Position numbers and translations under genes: made by a program. DNA of 64,000 bases from Laspinema sp. D2d (GTDB lineage: Bacteria > Cyanobacteriota > Cyanobacteriia > Cyanobacteriales > Laspinemataceae), in the NCBI RefSeq assembly GCF_025370755.1, contig NZ_JAMXFC010000008.1:1-64000 (forward strand), given 5' to 3'. Every line of letters begins with the position of its first letter. The first letter of the stretch is position 1. Positions 5,958-43,730 of the stretch are shown piece after piece. Under the pieces are notes generated by a model. It was not told where the DNA came from. It saw only the letters and a program-made list of their open reading frames with translations, and did not search any database.

Positions 5958-7136
5958 ATGGTAGAAAACACACCCATTCAGCCGCAGAAACCAGAGAACG
6001 TTCACAGTGCAGCCGCTCAGCTTGTCGGGTCACCGACTAAGGCATTACAAAAAATTGTGAACAATAATCTATCCGGGCGATTGACGATTCGAGATACGTC
6101 CGATCCTTCGGTATTTTGGCGGGTCCATTTTGGCAATGGCAAGGTGCATTTTGCCAGTAGTCTAACGGGATACAAAGAGCGCCTCAGTTATTATCTGTCT
6201 CGATTGTGCCCGCAACTGAAAGAGCTTTCCCTAGAAGGGTTTCAGTCGGACTATCAGGCAATTTGCCATTATTGGAAAGCGGGAAAAATTTCCTTACAAC
6301 AGGCTAGAGAAGTCTTACTTAAACTCACCCAAGAAGCATTGGTACAGGTCCTCAATTTACCTCAAGCGGGACTGCAATTTGAAAAAACCGTGGGACTCGA
6401 TCCAATTCTGCTTTCCCTGCCGTTGAAGCAGACGATATTGCCGATGCGAGAAGCGATTGGGAAATGGGGGAAAATTAAGGCAGAAATTGCCTCGCCCTTT
6501 CAGAGGATTTTTATCAGGAATTTAGAGCAAATTCCTAAGCTGTTATGGCCGACGTTTAAAAATGTTGACGGGATTAAACGGCTGATTGAAGTTTTAAATC
6601 GAGGTGGGTGTCTGTATGAAGTGGCTCAAGGGTTGAAAATCGATGTTCTATCTTTGGCACTCTTACTGCAACCTTTGGTGCAAGCGGAAGCGGTTGGGGT
6701 GAAGCCCTATCAGTCAGAAAAAGTTGAAGATGGGCCGATTATTGCCTGTATTGATGATAGTAAAACCACTCAGCGGCACGTTCGGGCGATTTTGCAGGCG
6801 GCGGGATACCGCTGTTTGATGTTAACGGAACCGGCGAAAGCGTTAACAACTTTGGCGCGGCATAAACCGGCGTTGGTGTTGATGGATATTAATATGCCAG
6901 AAATTAATGGTTATGAACTCTGCCGGATGTTGCGCCAGTCGAGTTTGTTGCAGGAAATCCCGATTGTGATGTTGACGGGACGGGATGGGATCATCGATAA
7001 GATGCGATCGCGGATGGTGGGAGCGAATGATTATATCACCAAACCTTTTGATGCCCAACAACTCTTGAAGGCGATCGAAATGCAGTTACTCGGCACGGCG
7101 GATTCTGACGGGGAAACAATTCTGCAAACGGGCTGA
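5958..7136 (+). CDS. PatA/PixG-type response regulator (PATAN + receiver)
   Basis: 392 residues. The N-terminal part (about 15-240) resembles the PATAN/DUF4388 region of cyanobacterial PatA and PixG proteins, with LSGRLTIRD and FGNGKVHFASS. The C-terminal part (about 260-385) is a receiver: IACIDDSKT, phospho-acceptor D310 in LMDINMPEING, LTGRDG, and K362 in YITKPFD. In this family the protein is a CheY-like output of a chemotaxis-type kinase, guiding twitching or gliding motility or development. GAGGGG lies just before the ATG. It is the first gene of a three-gene operon with cheW and hybrid cheA. It has no DNA-binding domain. Confidence 0.88.
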   Translation: MVENTPIQPQKPENVHSAAAQLVGSPTKALQKIVNNNLSGRLTIRDTSDPSVFWRVHFGNGKVHFASSLTGYKERLSYYLSRLCPQLKELSLEGFQSDYQAICHYWKAGKISLQQAREVLLKLTQEALVQVLNLPQAGLQFEKTVGLDPILLSLPLKQTILPMREAIGKWGKIKAEIASPFQRIFIRNLEQIPKLLWPTFKNVDGIKRLIEVLNRGGCLYEVAQGLKIDVLSLALLLQPLVQAEAVGVKPYQSEKVEDGPIIACIDDSKTTQRHVRAILQAAGYRCLMLTEPAKALTTLARHKPALVLMDINMPEINGYELCRMLRQSSLLQEIPIVMLTGRDGIIDKMRSRMVGANDYITKPFDAQQLLKAIEMQLLGTADSDGETILQTG

Positions 7137-7777: not shown

Positions 7778-10461
7778 TAGCATCCAATCGGGAATCCTCT
7801 GTGCCAGAAAATCTCCGCCTCGACTCCCCGGCGATCGCCACCATTGATCCCGATGCGCGCCACTGCTTCCTCCATGAAGAAGCGCCAGAATGCTTACTCG
7901 CTTTAGAACAAGGGATTCAATGTTTAAGCAGCAACGCCGCCACTCAGGAGAACCTCGGCGCTGCCTTTCCTGACCTAATTCGCGCCGCCCATACCCTCAA
8001 AGGGGGTGCCGGAATGGTGGGATTACCACAACTTTCCCACCTGGCACACTATATCGAAGAGTTATTAATCGCCCTCAATGAGGGACGAGTCCCTCACTTA
8101 CCTTCCGCCTACGAACTTTTATCTTTAAGTCTCGATCCCATCGGGGATTTACTGATTCAAGCTTGGAATAACAACGACTCCCTAACCTCCGATCGCCGAC
8201 TTCAGAACCTGATCCTCACCCTGGATCGCTTTGTCCAAGATTTACCCCCTCCACTTCAGGAGAGTTTGGAAGAAGAAGGTGCGGGGGAGGAATTCCCTCA
8301 CGCCTCTGATTCCTCGGTGAACTCCTTTGTTAAAATTGCCTTGGAGGTTGATTTAGAAGAGTGTCTGGAACGCCTAACGCGATCGCTGGCTGAATTTACG
8401 GACCATCCCACCTCCGCAGAACCCTCCCTCCGCGAGAGTCTCACCGTTTTTTTAGAAGAATGTACCCTCCTGGGGGAAACCTTGGGATTAGAGAGGTTAA
8501 CCAATATCAGTCGGGAAATTTTTGCCTCCCTCTCCCAGGAACAAGCGCCAGCGGAACAGTTAGCACAACTCGCGATCGCCCGAATTCGCACTCTCCAAAC
8601 CGAAACTCTCACCCCATCTCCCCCATCCTCCCCATCTCCCCAGTCGGAGTCAACCCGTTCCTCTATCCCAGAACGATTTTTAAAATACCTGATTGTCAAT
8701 CCCAATCCTGATCTGGCACCCGCAAATCTCACCCTACGAGTCCCCGTCACTCGCTTAGATCGGATGAGTGATACCCTGGGTAATTTAGTCCTAGAATCCG
8801 ATCGCCTCACCTTAGAACAAGAAAAACTCCAAACCGCGATCGCTACCCTCTCCCAATCCTCCCCATCTCCCCAATCCTCCCCATCTCCCCAATCCCTCCA
8901 ATCCTCCCCATCTCCAAACCTAGCAGCGATCACCGCTGAAATCCAACAAACCCTCGATCGCCTCAAAACCTCTTTAAACCAACTGAACCGGGACCTCACC
9001 GACTCCCGACTCATCCCCTTTGGGGCGATCGCCGAACGATTTATCACCCCCTTGGAAACCTTGCAACGACAGTATGGGAAGCAAGTTGAATTAGTCATCC
9101 AGGGAAAAGATAGACGAGTCGATCAACCGATTTTAGAACAATTACAAACCCCCTTAACCCACCTGTTCCGCAATGCCTTCGATCACGGGATTGAGTTACC
9201 CACGGAACGCAAAGCACTCGGCAAGTCACCCACCGCTAAAATCACCTTCTCTGCCACCGTTGAAGGGACTCAACTGGTAATTACGGTGGAAGATGATGGA
9301 CGAGGAATCGATCCCCAGAAGGTTTATAAGCGTGCCTTAGCAATGGGATTGATTGATCCCGAAAAAGGGTTTTCTAAAACCTTTTCTCCGGAGAATTCCA
9401 ACCCGAGTGAGATTTTACAATTTCTGTTCACGCCGGGATTTTCCACTGCCTCAAAAGTGACTGATTTATCGGGGCGTGGGGTAGGATTAGATATCGTGCA
9501 ACATCAAGTCGCGCGACTACGGGGAACGTTGCAAGTTGAGACAGTATTGGGACAGGGTACTAAGTTTACCATTGCAGTTCCCTTAACCTTGAGCCGGTTG
9601 TCCGTTTATTTGTGCCAATGTCAGGAGTACACCGTAGCAATTCCCGCAGATAAGGCGATCGCCGTGGTGAAGTTATCCGAGGCAGAGATCGCCGGGGGTG
9701 AAATTGGCGATCGCCATGAAGAAATTCCAGGACAAACGGAACCCTTGCCCATCTTTAGATTATGGGATGTGCTGCCCTACGGATCCCAAGTCCGGCAAAC
9801 AGTTTCTGAAGTGAATTCGCCCTCAGTTTGTCTGATTTTGCGGGTAAAGGGTCAACAGGTGGCGATCGCCGTAGATGCGGTACTGGAAGAACGTCCTGTC
9901 ATGCTCAAACCCCTGGATCTCACTGTCCCCGTTCCTCCCTACGTTGCCGGTTGTACAGTCCTAGGCAGCGGTGAAGTTGTGCCGGTCCTCGCCCCGCATC
10001 ACTTTCATCCTTTACTGTTTCCCCGTTCTTCCCTTAAACCCATCGCCAATGTCTCACAGGATACAGTATTAAGTTCTGATACTGCTCCTCATCTATTAAT
10101 AGTGGACGATTCCCTCACCATGCGCCGGATGTTGCAGGACCTATTCGAGAGTGCTGGATTTATACCCACCCTCTGTACCGATGGACGGGAGGCATTAACT
10201 CAACTAGCGCGATCGCCCCAGGGACAATTCCACCTGATCCTATCCGATGTAGAAATGCCCCATTTAGACGGATTAGGATTACTCCAAACCGTGCGATCGG
10301 ACCCCCAATGGCATCAAATCCCGATGGTGATGCTATCCTCCCGCGCCAATCCCGAGGATATTCACAAAGGCATCGAATTAGGCGCAACTGCCTATTTAAG
10401 TAAACCATTCGATCCAGGGATGTTGCTTGCTGCTATTCGCGAGATCCTTGATAGGGGATGA
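7774..10461 (+). CDS. Hybrid CheA-type histidine kinase with C-terminal receiver (PixL type)
   Basis: 895 residues. An HPt domain carries H73 in RAAHTLKGGAG. The dimerisation and catalytic region (about 315-610) has LFRNAFDHGIE, VEDDGRGID and GRGVGLDIV. A CheW-like domain follows, and a receiver has D825 in LSDVEMPHLDG and K877. In such systems the kinase phosphorylates its own receiver and the PatA-like partner. GGAG lies eight bases before the overlapping ATG. Two Ser/Pro-rich linkers (about 277-295 and 357-382) are encoded by the same CCCCATCTC/CCCCATCCT repeats found between genes in this window, so repeat DNA appears to have entered the reading frame without breaking it. Confidence 0.9.
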   Translation: MIASNRESSVPENLRLDSPAIATIDPDARHCFLHEEAPECLLALEQGIQCLSSNAATQENLGAAFPDLIRAAHTLKGGAGMVGLPQLSHLAHYIEELLIALNEGRVPHLPSAYELLSLSLDPIGDLLIQAWNNNDSLTSDRRLQNLILTLDRFVQDLPPPLQESLEEEGAGEEFPHASDSSVNSFVKIALEVDLEECLERLTRSLAEFTDHPTSAEPSLRESLTVFLEECTLLGETLGLERLTNISREIFASLSQEQAPAEQLAQLAIARIRTLQTETLTPSPPSSPSPQSESTRSSIPERFLKYLIVNPNPDLAPANLTLRVPVTRLDRMSDTLGNLVLESDRLTLEQEKLQTAIATLSQSSPSPQSSPSPQSLQSSPSPNLAAITAEIQQTLDRLKTSLNQLNRDLTDSRLIPFGAIAERFITPLETLQRQYGKQVELVIQGKDRRVDQPILEQLQTPLTHLFRNAFDHGIELPTERKALGKSPTAKITFSATVEGTQLVITVEDDGRGIDPQKVYKRALAMGLIDPEKGFSKTFSPENSNPSEILQFLFTPGFSTASKVTDLSGRGVGLDIVQHQVARLRGTLQVETVLGQGTKFTIAVPLTLSRLSVYLCQCQEYTVAIPADKAIAVVKLSEAEIAGGEIGDRHEEIPGQTEPLPIFRLWDVLPYGSQVRQTVSEVNSPSVCLILRVKGQQVAIAVDAVLEERPVMLKPLDLTVPVPPYVAGCTVLGSGEVVPVLAPHHFHPLLFPRSSLKPIANVSQDTVLSSDTAPHLLIVDDSLTMRRMLQDLFESAGFIPTLCTDGREALTQLARSPQGQFHLILSDVEMPHLDGLGLLQTVRSDPQWHQIPMVMLSSRANPEDIHKGIELGATAYLSKPFDPGMLLAAIREILDRG
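8611..8642. repeat. C-rich 9-bp-type repeat array inside hybrid cheA (first)
   Basis: Consecutive CCCCATCTC/CCCCATCCT-type units encode part of a Ser/Pro linker between the HPt domain and the kinase core. The units are the same as in the intergenic arrays. Confidence 0.8.
8846..8915. repeat. C-rich 9-bp-type repeat array inside hybrid cheA (second)
   Basis: About seven units such as CAATCCTCC and CCATCTCCC encode repeated SPSPQSS linkers within the dimerisation region. Units of nine bases keep the frame, which may explain why the insertion is tolerated. Confidence 0.8.
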
Positions 10462-26017: not shown

Positions 26018-26779
26018 TTATCGACCCGCACTTTTAATTCTCGCTAAAATTGTTTCCATTTCTGATAATTCTATGGCCCCGGAGAACGGTTCTTCATTCA
26101 TGAAAAAGAACGGCGTTCCATTAATGCCTAATTTACGGGCCAACATGAGGTCTTCCTCAATGGCGGCTTGGGCGGTTTCACTCTGGCGATCGCTATTAAA
26201 TTTCTCTAAATCTAAATTTAAGGTTTGGGCGATCGTCCCATATAACGCTTCTCCCAACTGCTCTTGCTGTTGGAATAATGCATCATGATATTCCCAGAAT
26301 TTCCCCTGTTGTTGAGCGGCCCAAGCCGCTTGTGCTGCGGGAAGTGCTTGGGCATGAATTTGCGTCAAAGGCAGATGCTTGTAAGTCAAGGTGACCTCAG
26401 ACTGATGTTTCGCCATAAACTGATTCACCGTTGCGTGAGCTTGGGCACAAAACGGACATTGAAAGTCAGAAAATTCCACAATCACGATATTTTTTTGAGG
26501 AGACCCTTTAAGGGGAGAGTTCCCGATAATTGCGCCCGGGTCGGTAGTCATTTGCTGTAAGAAAGCTTGCCTTGCTTGCTGAACCTCATTTTGTTGGTTC
26601 TCTTGATAGGCTTGCACCGATTCAATAATAACTTGGGGATTATTCCGAATAATCTCCAAGACTTGTGCTTCGAGGTCGGAATTGGCACTCGTGCTATTGA
26701 GACTGGTACAACCGAACAATCCAAAACCGAATATCAAACAGCAGGCTAAAGTCAAGGAAAAAAAGCGAAACCGGGACAT
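26018..26779 (-). CDS. DsbA/BdbD-like thioredoxin-fold lipoprotein
   Basis: 253 residues. A signal peptide ends in the lipobox GFGLFGC, so the protein is probably anchored outside the cytoplasmic membrane. The redox motif is CPFC in VEFSDFQCPFCAQAH, and the cis-Pro loop is GINGTPFFFM. The helical insert between them is DsbA-like. It probably oxidises or isomerises disulfides in exported proteins. The stretch EIIRNNPQVIIESVQAY is shared with this group of proteins. It is monocistronic. Confidence 0.88.
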   Translation of the reverse strand: MSRFRFFSLTLACCLIFGFGLFGCTSLNSTSANSDLEAQVLEIIRNNPQVIIESVQAYQENQQNEVQQARQAFLQQMTTDPGAIIGNSPLKGSPQKNIVIVEFSDFQCPFCAQAHATVNQFMAKHQSEVTLTYKHLPLTQIHAQALPAAQAAWAAQQQGKFWEYHDALFQQQEQLGEALYGTIAQTLNLDLEKFNSDRQSETAQAAIEEDLMLARKLGINGTPFFFMNEEPFSGAIELSEMETILARIKSAGR

Positions 26780-27216
26780 GAATAACCTCTCGGATAAAAA
26801 TTAGCAGCAGATCACTACTATAGGCGCTTTCCCAGGATTTTGACGAGTTTTCCCGGGGTGCAGAAGGCCCGTTTCATTGGTGATATCGATCGCTGCTAGA
26901 TTAGAGGAGTAACGTTACCATCATCTCCAGCACTCCCCGGCCCTTGGGCAACACTGGACGGCGGTAGATTTCGGTAGCCTACAGTACAGTTTGGGCATTA
27001 AGGAGTCATCGGTTATTTGATCCAAATAGATTTGGCCCGTCTGCTTTCCGTTGCCTTTGAAGCAAGCGGGAAGCAGCGATCCCAATTTGAGGTCCCCGGT
27101 TATCCCGAGACGGCGATCGCCCCCTGGTTGCATTGCACTGATGGCGAACCGTTGCTGTGGAAATCTGACCCCTCACTAAACTCTAACCACCCCTCACGAA
27201 TGTTACTCAATCCCCT
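26780..27216. other. Divergent promoter region of the lipoprotein and the urea-sensor kinase
   Basis: About 440 bases between divergent genes. An overlapping frame from 27017 has no family likeness. No signal sequence can be joined in frame to the downstream kinase, because a stop (TAA at 27184) precedes it. Confidence 0.4.
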
Positions 27217-29688
27217 ATGTATGAGCGGAATTTTTCAGTGGATGATCGCGTCCAATCCCCTAATCAACCCATTAAAGTCGGGGTGTTACATTCCCTAACG
27301 GGTACGATGTCGATCGGTGAAGTATCCGTCAAAGATGCCACCCTGTTAGCGATTGAAGAAATTAATGCCGCCGGTGGGGTATTGGGCCGCCCCTTAGAAG
27401 CCGTGATTGCCGATGGGGAAAGCAATTTAAAAACTTTTGCGGACAAAGCCAAACAATTACTCACTCAAGAGCAAGTGGAAGTGGTTTTTGGCTGCTGGAC
27501 CTCTGCCTCACGCAAGGCGGTACTCCCGATTTTGGAGGAATTAAATGGATTGTTGTTTTATCCGGTCCAATATGAAGGATTAGAACAGTCTCCCAATATT
27601 TTCTATACGGGTGCAGCACCCAATCAACAAATTGTTCCGGCGGTCCAATATTTATTGGATCGGGGCTTTCGCCACATTTATTTACTCGGGTCAGATTATA
27701 TTTTCCCCCGGACAGCGAATCAAATTATTAAAGCGCAATTAGTAGCCCAAGATGCGGTTTTAGCGGGGGAAGAATACATTCCCCTGGGTTCGCGAGAGGT
27801 GAGTACCGCGATCGCCCATATTCTTTCCGTACAACCGGATGCCGTCTTCAATACCCTCAATGGCGATACGAATGTAGCCTTTTTCCGAGAGTTAAATCAA
27901 GCGGGGTTGACCCCGCAGGACTTGCCGGTGATGTCTGTGAGTGTTGCCGAGGCGGAGGTCCGGGAAATAGGGGCCGAGGCGATCGCCGGACATTGGGTGG
28001 CGTGGAATTACTTTCAAAGCATCGATACCCTGGAAAACCAGAAATTCGTGAGGGCCTATAAAGCCAAGTATGGCAGCGATCGCGTTACTTCGGACCCGAT
28101 CGCCTCGGGGTATCTGGGGGTCTACTTGTGGAAAAAAGCCGTGGAAAAAGCCCAGTCTACTCAAGTGGCGAAGGTGAAGGCAGCGGCGAAAAATATAGAA
28201 TTGGTCACCCCTAAAGGGTTAGTCAAACTGGATGCCAAAACTCAGCATCTGTGGAATACGGTCCGCATAGGGCAAATCAAGCCCGATGGGGCGATCGTGG
28301 AAATTTGGAACTCCCGGGAGGCTATTGCACCAGACCCCTTTCTCGCCCGCTATCCTTGGGCCGCCGGACTCTCTCAACGAGGCTTCCGCTGGGGAATCAA
28401 TGCCAAACTGATGAGCTTATTTAGCAGTTTAGTGGCGATCGCCTGGGTGGCATTGGGCTTAGAGTGGCTGACAGCAGCAGAAATTCAGCGAAATATCGCC
28501 GCCCTAATTCAGCGGGTTGAGCAAATGTCTACACCCCACGCGGAAATGTTGCAATGGGGGGATGCGGTGATGGCCGCAGCGCAACGCAGTCAATATTTAT
28601 TGCTAATGCTACTCCTGTTGAGCATTCTATCAATGGGGGTGGCTTTTTTTGTCGTTTCCCGAATTACCCGGGCATTAAATGGGGTGACTCAAACCGCCCA
28701 ACGATTAGCATCCGGGGATTTAACAGCGCGATCGCCCCTGGTTTCAGGAGATGAAATTGGCGTGCTCTCTTCGACTCTGAATACAATGGCACAACAGGTC
28801 AACTGTTTACTCAAAGGGTTAGAAGTTCGTTCTCGCCAGGTGGAAGAACACAGTTTAGAATTAGAGGCAGCGGTTTACGCTGCCCAAGCTGCCAGTCGGG
28901 CTAAAAGTACGTTTTTAGCCAATATGAGCCACGAATTGCGAACGCCACTGAATGCGATCGTGGGGTATAGCGAACTCCTGCAAGAAGAAGTAGAGGAGAT
29001 TCTCGCCGATGAACAGTTGATCAGTGACCTCCAAAAAATTAACATTGCGGGCAAAAATCTCTTGGCGATCGTCAGTGATATTTTAGATATTTCTAAAATT
29101 GAAGCAGGCAAAATGGACTTGTGTTTGGATGCCTTCGATGTCCCCCAGTTGATTCATGAGGTAGTAACCACCCTTGAGCCCTTGCTGCTGGCGAATGGTA
29201 ATGCAATCTGCTTAGATTATCCTCACCCAATGGGAATGATGACAGCGGATCTCACCAAGGTCCGACAAATCCTCTTAAACCTGCTGAGTAATGCGGCTAA
29301 ATTTACAAAAAAGGGCAAAATTATGGTAGAGGTGAGGATTACAAATCCCGCAGAAAATACCGGGGAACAGGTCACCCTAAATTCTACGCCTCTCCCCCCA
29401 AGTGAAACGCCCTGGATTCTATTTCGGGTCCGGGATACAGGAATTGGCATGAGTTCCGAACAAATCGCCCAACTGTTTCAACCCTTTGTGCAGGGGGATG
29501 ATTCGACTACGCGCAAGTATGGCGGGACGGGATTGGGTTTAGCGTTGGTTAAAAAATTTTGCGAGATGATGGGAGGGGCGATCGCGGTGGAAAGTGAACT
29601 GGGACGAGGGTCGGTGTTTGAGATTGCCCTCCCCTTGGTGGTCAAGAATACACCCGCCCAGAAGATGACCCTTAATCAGGCTGCTTAA
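27217..29688 (+). CDS. UrtA-like urea-binding domain fused to a histidine kinase
   Basis: 823 residues. Residues 18-365 read as a urea-binding protein of the UrtA/AmiC family: [63 protein letters not shown] and WNYFQSIDT. Two membrane helices follow (about 398-418 and 460-480), then HAMP, a HisKA domain with H572 in [10 protein letters not shown], and a HATPase domain with [19 protein letters not shown] and [11 protein letters not shown]. No signal peptide precedes the ligand domain and a stop blocks extension, so the sensor is probably cytoplasmic. It has no receiver and no partner regulator nearby. The WD40 gene follows 73 bases later. Confidence 0.87.
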
Positions 29689-29761
29689 AGCGGGACGGTC
29701 AGCAGGTGAGCCGATTGCCAGTAAAATATTCAGCAAAACCACTTGAATTCAAACAATTATA

Positions 29762-30679
29762 ATGCCTGAACCTATGATAGGGCGATCGGTTGAGACCTTC
29801 TCAGGCCACTTAGACCGGGTGAGTTCCGTGGCCGTCTCGCCGGATGGAAAAACCCTTGCCAGCAGCAGTTTGGACCACACGATCGCCCTATGGGATTTAA
29901 CCTCGGGTCAAAAACTCCATACCCTCTGCGGACATTCTGGAGCGGTTCTGGGGGTGATTTTTTCCCGGGATGGTCAATGTTTGGTCAGTTGCGGGACGGA
30001 TAAAAAGATTCAGGTTTGGGATTTGGGCCGCTTGAAGCCCATTCGCCAGTTGGGGCGATGGTTTGGCGGTCATCAGGAACCTGTTTTAGCCCTGGCAATG
30101 GCCCCCGATGGCAACATTCTGGTGAGTACCAGTGGCGATCGCACCTTGAAACGCTGGAATCTAGGGACAGGTAAACTGGAATGGACCCTCACTTTGGAGG
30201 GGGAGGAACTGGGGGAGATTCAATCCCTAGCGATTAGTCCCGATAGCAAAATTTTAGCGGGAGGCAGTAGCGATAGTCAGATTGCCCTGTGGAATTTACA
30301 GACAGGAGAAACATTGCGGACCCTCACCGGCCATTCTGCCGGGGTGACAGGGGTCGCATTTAGTCCCGATGGGCAGGTTTTGGCCTCTAGTAGTTGGGAT
30401 AAAACCGTGGCCCTGTGGAATTCCCAGACTGGAGAGCAAATCGCCTCCCTGGTGGGACATTCCGATGTGGTGAATGCCGTCACGTTTCATCCCGATGGAG
30501 AGAGACTCGCTTCTGGGAGTTGGGATAAAACTGTGGCCCTGTGGAATAGGAAAACGGGAGAACAAATTGCGTCCCTAGTGGGACATTCCGATGCTGTGCG
30601 ATCGCTGACCTTTAGTCCCGATGGGAGTGTGTTGGTTTCCGGGAGTTGGGACCAAACGATCGCCCTGTGGCAGGTATAG
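29762..30679 (+). CDS. Seven-repeat WD40 protein
   Basis: 305 residues that are almost entirely WD40 repeats: seven units, each with a GH-start and an LW or RW end, as in GHSDVVNAVTFHPDG and SWDKTVALWN. Seven make one complete beta-propeller, so the protein is a single scaffold without enzymatic or membrane domains. Repeats five, six and seven are very alike even in DNA, suggesting recent duplication. It lies 73 bases behind the urea-sensor kinase on the same strand, so co-transcription is possible. Partners are unknown. Confidence 0.85.
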   Translation: MPEPMIGRSVETFSGHLDRVSSVAVSPDGKTLASSSLDHTIALWDLTSGQKLHTLCGHSGAVLGVIFSRDGQCLVSCGTDKKIQVWDLGRLKPIRQLGRWFGGHQEPVLALAMAPDGNILVSTSGDRTLKRWNLGTGKLEWTLTLEGEELGEIQSLAISPDSKILAGGSSDSQIALWNLQTGETLRTLTGHSAGVTGVAFSPDGQVLASSSWDKTVALWNSQTGEQIASLVGHSDVVNAVTFHPDGERLASGSWDKTVALWNRKTGEQIASLVGHSDAVRSLTFSPDGSVLVSGSWDQTIALWQV

Positions 30680-31002: not shown

Positions 31003-31437
31003 TTAATCGAGGAAACCCATCAATCCCTCACTCTCATCCACGTCATTCGAGCAAATGGGCCGGTTTCCCATCAAATGATCGCAGTTCATGAGGATGGTGC
31101 TTTCTGTAATCGGACGATTTCCAGATACCTGCATGGAGTGGGCGACATGAATCAGACTCGCCCCAATCGGACGAATTCCCGAGGAGTTTAAGGTATCGGC
31201 GACGATAAAATTACTAGCCTCAACGGGACGGTTGCCGGACAGGTTGATACTGTCAGAAATCTCAAAGTTGCTCAGTCCGATGGGGCGGTTTCCGGGTAAA
31301 CCCCCTTGCCGATAGAGCTGAATGCCTTCCGGGGCGGCTTTTTCAGGTAATTTATCTTGTATTTTCTTCATACTATCTTGGGGTTCGTTTTCTGGGTTGG
31401 GTTTCTCAGTTTCATCAGCGATCGCGCTATCCGCCAT
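31003..31437 (-). CDS. GNRPI-repeat protein, function unknown
   Basis: 144 residues from the ATG at 31437, which has GGAGGAG nine bases upstream; the longer frame from a GTG at 31518 lacks a binding site. The first 45 residues are acidic and probably disordered. The rest is five repeats with GNRPI or a close variant starting at residues 49, 68, 87, 106 and 124, a period of 19, each followed by a Ser-x-hydrophobic segment. It has no signal peptide or catalytic motif. Regular spacing suggests a stacked fold or a peptide-binding scaffold. It lies at the end of a minus-strand group with CsbD genes. Confidence 0.75.
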   Translation of the reverse strand: MADSAIADETEKPNPENEPQDSMKKIQDKLPEKAAPEGIQLYRQGGLPGNRPIGLSNFEISDSINLSGNRPVEASNFIVADTLNSSGIRPIGASLIHVAHSMQVSGNRPITESTILMNCDHLMGNRPICSNDVDESEGLMGFLD

Positions 31438-31793
31438 CTCGGGATTCTCCTCCAAAAACACTGGGTTAGTTTTCCTTTCCTCCTGAAAATCCGTCTCGTT
31501 TCCGCCCTGTTTTAGCACGGTTGAATCGGTACGTTTCTACCTCATCGATGGCGATAGGGCCTTATTTCATGAGTCGGAGACTAGCTTTCGCTGTCAGATC
31601 TTTTTTAGGGTTCTAACTTAAGCCTTAATTATACGGGTTGAAGGATCTGCAGACGAGTTCATCGCACTCTACATTACTGTAAATTTTTGTAAAACTCTCA
31701 AAAAAAATCTTATTGGGATCATAAGCGGGGATAGCCGTTCCTCGGGCATCCTAGGGTTCTTGCAGATTCGCTACGGGGGGGATCTGAAGAAAA
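31438..31793. other. Intergenic, no gene seen
   Basis: About 350 bases between two minus-strand genes. It holds the ribosome binding site of the GNRPI gene and an AT-rich upstream segment (31615-31720) that may contain its promoter. Confidence 0.4.
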
Positions 31794-42062: not shown

Positions 42063-43730
42063 ATGAGTCGGGGAAAAGGGAGCAAGCTGAAACTGATGGT
42101 GGTCGATGATGAAATCGACAACCTAGACTTGCTATACCGGACGTTTCGGCGGGACTTTGACGTTTATCGAGCAGATAGTGCGTTTAAAGCTCTGGAGGAG
42201 CTGGACGAAAGCGGCGAAATGGCCGTGATTATTTCAGACCAGCGAATGCCAGAAATGAACGGCACAGAATTTCTCAGTAAAACGGTAGAACGGTTTCCCG
42301 ATACGATTCGGATTCTACTGACCGGCTACACCGATGTAGAGGACCTGGTAGAGGCGATTAACTCCGGCCAAGTATTCAAGTACATCACCAAACCGTGGAA
42401 CCCTGAAGAATTAAAGGCGGTGGTTCAGCAAGCGTCTGAAACTTATAAGGTAGTTAAGCAAAGTACAAATATTCTCCGTCGCGCTCTGCGCCGGGAAGCA
42501 TTATTTAATGCGGTAATGAGCGCAATTCGGGAGTCATTGGACTACCGCAGTATGTTGCAGACCATTGTGGAAACCGTTGGCGAAAATTTTGAGGCGACTC
42601 GTTGCATTCTGCGACCTGTAGAGGGCGATCGCCTCACGCCAGACTCGTTTTCCTATCTGAACCCTAACACAGGCTCCATTGATGTACCCGAGGAGGAGGA
42701 CGCCCTCATTGCCACAGTCTTGGAAAGCCGTCAGACTCAATTAGTTCAAGGAGACAACAATGGCAAGGATTCCACTCGCTTGGTTGTCCCCCTGAGCTAC
42801 CAAAAGGATCTGCTCGCGGTGATGTCGGTCTACCAAGATGGCAGCGCTAACAGTTGGTCTCCTGAAGATATCCAATTGATTGAAGGGGTGACCGAACAAG
42901 CCGCCCTGGCGCTGTCTCAAGCCAAGCTCTATCAGCGCACTGAGGAGCAAGCCCAGCAAATGATGGCTGAATTAGAGGTGGCTCGTCAAATTCAAACCAA
43001 TTTGCTTCGGCAAAGTTGGCCGGAATTTGAAACCGCTCGGGTTCAAGCCTCTTGCTATCCCGCTCGCGCCGTCGGTGGTGATTTCTTTGAGGTCTACGTT
43101 CATGCTCAAGGTGATATCTGGGTCGCTGTGGGTGATGTGTCCGGGAAGGGGGTACCCGCTGCCCTGTTTATGGCGAGTGCTATTTCGGTGATGCGGCGCG
43201 AACTGGCCCAGGAAACTTCGCCCGAACCCGAAACAGTCATGATGAACCTGAACAGCGCTCTGGCCGATGACCTAATGGGCAATAACTGTTTTATTACAAT
43301 GGTTGTGGCTCGTTATCGCCCCTCTACCCGAGAGTTGGCCTATGCAAATGCTGGACATATCTATCCCCTCGTCTGGTCTCATCAAATGTTAACTTCTTCT
43401 GATGCAGCCACCATTGAACCCAATTTCCTCAAAGCTCGGGGCATTCCTTTGGGAATTTTACCCGTTTGGAGAGGCAAGGTGGGGAGCATGGAGTTAAATC
43501 CAGGGGAAGTTTTTCTGCTAACGAGCGATGGTCTCACAGAGGCCACCATCACCAATCCAGACTCCTCGATTGGACATCATAAGGGGTCGATGTTGGAACA
43601 AGAAGGTCTCTGGCAGTTGATCGGTCAGGAAAATCACCCCCTCGACCTCAATCACTTATTAGCTCGCGTCCGCGAAATTGCTCAAGAGCAGGAAGATGAC
43701 CAAACTATACTTTCTCTGGAGGTTCTGTAA
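42063..43730 (+). CDS. Receiver-GAF-PP2C phosphatase (RsbU-like response regulator)
   Basis: 555 residues from the ATG at 42063 (GGGG six bases upstream). The receiver has D59 in IISDQRMPEMNG and K110 in YITKPWN. A GAF-like region (about 155-300) follows, then a short coiled coil ending in EVARQIQTNLL and a SpoIIE/PP2C domain with ARAVGGDFFEV, VGDVSGKGVPAAL, NAGHIYPL and LTSDGLTE. Such proteins dephosphorylate an anti-anti-sigma protein and so release a partner-switch. The RsbW-like kinase gene begins three bases after this stop. Confidence 0.9.
   Translation: MSRGKGSKLKLMVVDDEIDNLDLLYRTFRRDFDVYRADSAFKALEELDESGEMAVIISDQRMPEMNGTEFLSKTVERFPDTIRILLTGYTDVEDLVEAINSGQVFKYITKPWNPEELKAVVQQASETYKVVKQSTNILRRALRREALFNAVMSAIRESLDYRSMLQTIVETVGENFEATRCILRPVEGDRLTPDSFSYLNPNTGSIDVPEEEDALIATVLESRQTQLVQGDNNGKDSTRLVVPLSYQKDLLAVMSVYQDGSANSWSPEDIQLIEGVTEQAALALSQAKLYQRTEEQAQQMMAELEVARQIQTNLLRQSWPEFETARVQASCYPARAVGGDFFEVYVHAQGDIWVAVGDVSGKGVPAALFMASAISVMRRELAQETSPEPETVMMNLNSALADDLMGNNCFITMVVARYRPSTRELAYANAGHIYPLVWSHQMLTSSDAATIEPNFLKARGIPLGILPVWRGKVGSMELNPGEVFLLTSDGLTEATITNPDSSIGHHKGSMLEQEGLWQLIGQENHPLDLNHLLARVREIAQEQEDDQTILSLEVL

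Follow-up and report, generated by a model that had tools for sequence, protein, structure and literature searches.

Why should a domain that resembles the urea-binding protein UrtA be joined to a membrane-bound histidine kinase with no signal peptide in front of it, and on which side of the membrane would it read its ligand? This question is raised by one gene in the window, which is the whole stretch of DNA that was analysed (64,000 nucleotides from Laspinema sp. D2d). Sequence comparison makes it probable that the protein is an inward-facing, urea-sensing histidine kinase, in which a membrane hairpin serves as the anchor and the UrtA-type domain and the kinase both lie in the cytoplasm. Urea as the ligand, the cytoplasmic side, the direction of the response, the partner and the target genes are the parts of this reading that we infer. 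The features of the gene are collected in Table 1.

Table 1. Features of the kinase gene, in coordinates of the window
Feature	Positions	Strand	Basis
In-frame TAA stop upstream of the kinase reading frame; bars a longer N terminus	27184..27186	+	sequence
Entire gene (823 aa): UrtA-type domain, pair of membrane helices, HAMP and histidine kinase	27217..29688	+	ORF, Pfam
UrtA-type ligand domain, residues 19-378	27271..28350	+	Pfam, TIGR03407, phmmer, Foldseek, pocket alignment
Putative membrane helix 1, about residues 398-416, basic on its N-terminal side	28408..28464	+	hydrophobicity, charge count, model
Interhelix loop, 45 residues, predicted outside, modelled in helical hairpin	28465..28599	+	charge count, model
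Putative membrane helix 2, about residues 462-480	28600..28656	+	hydrophobicity, charge count, model
HAMP, residues 478-528	28648..28800	+	Pfam
HisKA dimerisation and phospho-acceptor domain, residues 562-631, H572	28900..29109	+	Pfam, motif alignment
HATPase_c, residues 678-807, DTGIGM and GLGLAL boxes	29248..29637	+	Pfam, motif alignment

The reading frame begins with ATG and, as the original prediction had stated, the stop codon blocks its extension. The ATG follows the TAA by 33 bases, the ten codons between them include no ATG, GTG or TTG, and at most ten extra N-terminal residues ([10 protein letters not shown]) would be possible. The two membrane helices, HAMP, HisKA and HATPase that had been described were all recovered, as hydrophobic segments and Pfam matches, and the description agreed with the sequence wherever a check could be made. 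SHELRTP begins at residue 571, which makes H572 the phospho-acceptor, and the kinase motifs (the HisKA His and the HATPase N, G1 and G2 boxes) are intact. An AlphaFold2 model built with 64 sequences has a mean pLDDT of 78.3, with values of about 90 across most of the ligand domain and below 50 at residues 500-551; in this model two long helices (389-436 and 442-498) contain the membrane segments. The ligand domain, HAMP, HisKA and HATPase were found by Pfam in all 31 aligned sequences of this membrane layout, the window included, and the four-part layout is thus far beyond chance.

The N-terminal part had been said to read like UrtA, and profile, structure and pocket comparisons bear this out. 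Pfam matches Peripla_BP_5 there with 499.6 bits, and the NCBIfam UrtA model TIGR03407 gives 530 bits, above its cut-off of 492.75. The top match of both phmmer and Foldseek is PDB 8tg1, titled as the periplasmic urea-binding protein of Caldicellulosiruptor saccharolyticus (Foldseek: 63% identity over 364 columns, rmsd 1.5, TM-score 0.95 by target); the structure matches that follow are the cyanobacterial UrtA-urea complexes 7s6e, 7s6f and 8hic, and then AmiC. In Prochlorococcus UrtA nine residues lie near urea, and mutating eight of them one at a time weakened or eliminated binding, Phe192 mattering little (PMC10392092, in the part of that paper used here). On alignment to this Prochlorococcus marinus protein all nine are kept in the window protein (W94, S96, Y115, Q118, E120, Y161, F163, N215 and S242), and the string that they form, WSYQEYFNS, is identical in 28 of the 31 distinct sequences of the membrane layout, window included. 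Both sequence and predicted model identify the ligand domain as a urea-binding protein. A calcium site was considered as a clue to location and was set aside, as calcium occurs once in the main text of PMC10392092, in the crystallisation buffer.

The original prediction is to be supplemented on distribution: the gene is no single case and is spread over several filamentous cyanobacterial families. The search covered 291 genomes drawn from the order and used the helix-loop-helix-HAMP stretch with a full-length match. At least 31 genomes matched with E 3.4e-31 or better, 31 being a lower bound with at most 12 candidates scored per genome, and all eight sampled genomes of the genus were among them. 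Among the best 80 of 113 matches, the named relatives have record titles of Laspinema, Oscillatoria, Phormidium, Microcoleus, Tychonema and Zarconia. Two apparent long fusions (L020 and L069) were discarded, being separate reading frames joined by tblastn. The linker is well conserved at residues 372-382. A receiver domain stands on the same chain in 19 of the 31 sequences and is absent from the window protein and from its genus. It is present in the sister row L142, whose pairing with the genus was supported in three trees (93; 94/95; 81/92), and the receiver was thus probably lost in the genus of the window. Searches of an open-access library showed no description of such a kinase, which is no proof of its absence; each ingredient is known, and what these searches did not show is the ingredients joined in one protein and present across filamentous cyanobacteria.

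The side of the membrane was approached through the leads of the proteins and through the charges that flank the helices. It had been claimed that no signal peptide precedes the ligand domain, and the in-frame stop and a non-hydrophobic lead agree with this. The scan was our own and is cruder than SignalP (an 11-residue Kyte-Doolittle mean of at least 1.5, together with a twin-arginine search); by it neither a hydrophobic lead nor a twin-arginine motif was seen in any of the 31 distinct sequences of the membrane layout, window included. The same scan detected a hydrophobic lead in 67 and a twin-arginine motif in 70 of 114 free-standing family members, a set that includes AmiC-type rows, which are expected to be without a signal. 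In L127 the upstream stop and the ligand domain are only three residues apart; L004 and L008 have additional upstream start codons, but their leads are not hydrophobic. A signal sequence missed through a sequencing error or a frameshift had been named as a danger to the claim. The gene is present in each of the eight sampled genomes of the genus, no signal was seen in the genus copies that were fetched, and on these copies, the upstream stop and the non-hydrophobic leads such a miss was rejected. Homologues with an N-terminal signal peptide had been named as a second danger, and by the scan there was none among the 31 sequences of this layout.

The charges point the same way. Basic residues had been noted on the N-terminal side of the first helix, and the 15 residues before it indeed hold three basic and no acidic residues in the window protein, while the 15 after helix 2 hold two basic and no acidic ones. 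Across the 31 sequences the stretch before helix 1 has one to five basic and at most one acidic residue, and basic residues outnumber acidic ones in every case; behind helix 2 the net charge is positive in 27 sequences and zero in four. The interhelix loop (38-50 residues) has a net charge of -3 to +1 except in L127 (+6, with 10 basic and 4 acidic residues) and L016 (+3, with 7 and 4). These two sequences form one clade, which combines degenerate urea pockets with unusually basic loops, so that ligand or topology may differ there. Leads and charges together predict that the ligand domain and the kinase would both be cytoplasmic, and the claim that both face inwards stands as a prediction from sequence.

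Soluble fusions, presumably cytoplasmic, give the best indirect evidence that a ligand domain of the UrtA-type family can face inwards. Cyanobacterial UrtA-type domains were found without any membrane helix on GAF-kinases (L084, in this genome, L122 and L123), on GGDEF proteins (L124 and L126 by Pfam, L125 as a close relative) and on a PAS-adenylate cyclase (L116). This class made up eight rows, or seven genes, in the lead scan. The stop-to-stop lead of L126 has a hydrophobic stretch, and the leads of its relatives L124 and L125 are only five residues long; the L084 gene, present as two rows, carries a twin-arginine pattern (RRGL) in a non-hydrophobic lead (0.15). A protein that has no signal and no helix has to be taken as cytoplasmic. 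The genus has a soluble paralogue of this kind, a UrtA-type/GAF/histidine kinase without membrane helices (L084 at 5139-8153 on contig C23 of this genome, and L154-L160), in which the pocket Gln is replaced by Glu in all eight genomes. This replacement suggests that the ligand of the soluble kinase may be different, perhaps cationic. Another soluble UrtA-type/GAF/kinase-like gene, with domains named by eye, lies in two frames on a megaplasmid of Kovacikia minuta (L152, 3016-5698), which reflects either a frameshift or a sequencing error.

Several other explanations of the membrane kinase have to be weighed against these data. The kinase could face inwards just as proposed and have another small amide or a guanidine-like compound as its true ligand. 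The Peripla_BP_5 fold does bind other amides, as the PDB titles of AmiC with acetamide and with butyramide show, and the Glu of the soluble paralogue indicates that the pockets of signal-less members do shift; but the window pocket agrees with UrtA at each of the nine positions, and members with a likely different ligand differ from it, namely L053 and L048, free-standing Pseudomonas relatives of AmiC type with the pocket YSYYEYYVT, and L041 with FSYFEYWVA. We therefore regard another ligand as unlikely. It is more doubtful still that the domain has ceased to be a sensor and serves as a scaffold, a dimerisation unit or a protein-docking module. Pocket residues have indeed been lost in the membrane class, one in L139, three in L127 (WSYSEYLAS) and five in L016 (SSYAEGFAR), and the losses in the last two would suit such a role, but the other 28 sequences keep every pocket residue even though whole-length identity to the window protein drops to 53-63% outside the genus.

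An ordinary periplasmic sensor, with the ligand domain exported by way of a missed start, a frameshift or translocation of the N-terminal tail by helix 1, would suit the periplasmic location of the closest relatives with solved structures. The upstream stop, the lack of a hydrophobic lead throughout the class and the basic residues before helix 1 argue against it, and an outside N terminus followed by two helices would place the kinase outside as well; this explanation is highly improbable. The inward-facing urea-sensing kinase is thus the reading that we retain.

Trees of the ligand domain place the membrane class in one clade and the soluble class in another, with full or nearly full support. 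In a tree with 8tg1 the membrane class groups with that protein (98/95); when more rows from Firmicutes and Actinomycetota were added no nearest neighbour gained firm support. With these outside rows added (49 rows) the AU test rejected a clade of the membrane class with cyanobacterial UrtA (p 0.0045), which disfavours descent from the genome's own UrtA, and it also disfavoured a single clade of the membrane and soluble classes (p 0.0147), whereas with 81 rows and without those additions one inward turn for both classes was not rejected (p 0.396); the p values are optimistic, because the groups were defined once a first tree had been seen. The 49-row tree was meant to omit nine members that have differing pockets or long branches, but similar rows (L040, L066, L050 and L078) entered it through the redundancy filter. 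It is tentatively proposed, as a possibility that falls a little short of even, that in filamentous cyanobacteria the periplasmic urea-binding protein was turned inwards on two or more occasions, one leading to the membrane kinase, from a lineage other than their own UrtA, and another to the soluble kinases, diguanylate cyclases and adenylate cyclases. Together these proteins would form a cytoplasmic network that reports internal urea and, in members with Glu in place of the pocket Gln, perhaps a cationic compound related to urea, for example guanidine.

That no partner regulator lies nearby was confirmed for a distance of about 12 kb, within which no receiver domain was found by the Pfam scan and the PF00072 places; Pfam detected neither a receiver nor an ANTAR domain in 16 proteins encoded from 18930 to 41712. 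With 150 of 174 candidates in the genome scored, the PF00072 places listed for the window that come closest to the gene are 42096-42425, 10096-10440 and 6741-7079; the genome as a whole has at least 150 receiver domains. Within about 6 kb there are genes for a heavy-metal P-type ATPase, a DsbA-like protein, a WD40 protein, uvrB and proteins without a Pfam match. No urt gene stands beside the kinase gene, and because the genes within this distance include no urtBCDE the window protein is not a UrtA transporter subunit. Rfam had no match in 26700-30000, and no RNA element was found beside the gene. The DsbA-like gene flanks the kinase in 14 and uvrB in 12 of 19 loci compared, several of which end too early to tell; both flanks are common to Laspinema and Microcoleus-type loci, and this sharing points to inheritance of the kinase gene in place. 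At 31003-31518 (-) lies the gene of a protein of 171 residues that has spaced repeats around GNRPI/GIRPI and is not matched by Pfam; relatives of this protein adjoin the kinase in 13 of the 19 loci.

The genome encodes a urease, and a separate urtA (433 aa) lies on contig C49 at a locus that also has a ureG-like reading frame, its product named by eye. A separate UrtA was found in all 31 kinase-bearing genomes (base rate in the order 234 of 291) and urease in 30 of them (257 of 291), the exception being a genome that is 61% complete; these counts are uncorrected for relatedness. As the base rates are high, the co-occurrence fits a tie between the kinase and urea use only weakly. In Synechocystis a guanidinase of the arginase family, controlled by a guanidine-I riboswitch, makes urea (PMC12186494, in the part used here). 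Guanidine as a source of internal urea was set aside for the present genome, where no arginase-family gene was found (three of three candidates scored) and no guanidine-I riboswitch among the 150 of 377 candidates scored. Internal urea would thus come mainly from uptake, most likely import by the separate Urt system, before urease splits it.

On the retained reading, internal urea would close the two lobes of the ligand domain, a movement expected from UrtA (PMC10392092, in the part used). To reach the helices of HAMP and HisKA, the closure could travel along the linker and the hairpin, or the ligand domain could touch HAMP directly. In Aer the PAS domain touches HAMP. A shift of these helices would change autophosphorylation of H572, and the phosphate would be taken by the receiver on the same chain in the 19 sequences that have one; in the genus of the window a receiver encoded elsewhere must take it. 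Urea is bound by Prochlorococcus UrtA with a Kd of 141 nM (PMC10392092, same part), and with a similar affinity the kinase would be saturated at low internal urea and so would report its presence rather than its amount.

Nitrogen control in cyanobacteria is usually explained by 2-oxoglutarate acting through NtcA and PII. NtcA and 2-oxoglutarate also appear in the abstract of PMC3898017. If the proposed reading is true, the kinase would add a substrate-specific nitrogen input placed after uptake and before urease, since it would read urea directly in the cytoplasm, and a periplasmic binding protein would have been reused across the membrane inside a kinase. A clear pocket and a small ligand put the idea within direct reach of a test, and the domain could be used as a ready-made sensor of internal urea.

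The window protein can be set beside several known systems. With UrtA (TIGR03407; 8tg1, 8hic, 7s6e, 7s6f) it has fold and pocket in common, but no signal peptide was found in it, no urt gene lies beside it and it is fused to a kinase. The original prediction had compared it with cytoplasmic AmiC. This stands for the fold, which in AmiC-AmiR of Pseudomonas aeruginosa (1pea, 1qnl, 1qo0) is the same (TM-score 0.90-0.92 by target, 31-32% identity), but not for the pocket, which is of UrtA type: aligned with W94, Q118, F163, N215 and S242 of the window protein, AmiC shows Y, P, Y, V and T, and these differences, with the full UrtA match, rule out an AmiC-like pocket. AmiC uses the fold in the cytoplasm for small amides, is free-standing and acts on an antiterminator; the window kinase has no adjacent AmiR-type antiterminator among the 16 neighbouring proteins (18930-41712). 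In LuxPQ and TorTS a protein of the binding-protein fold governs a histidine kinase, as in the window protein, but there it lies outside the cell and is a separate chain. Aer and KdpD are similar in order, with an N-terminal cytoplasmic sensor, a membrane segment and a cytoplasmic HAMP or kinase; their sensors are PAS/FAD and KdpD/USP rather than a urea-binding protein, and Aer is a chemoreceptor. The soluble fusions (L084, L116 and L122-L126) likewise join a UrtA-type domain, which no recognised signal precedes, to a signalling output, and they differ from the window kinase in having no membrane helices, in their GAF-kinase, GGDEF or PAS-adenylate cyclase outputs and in forming a separate clade.
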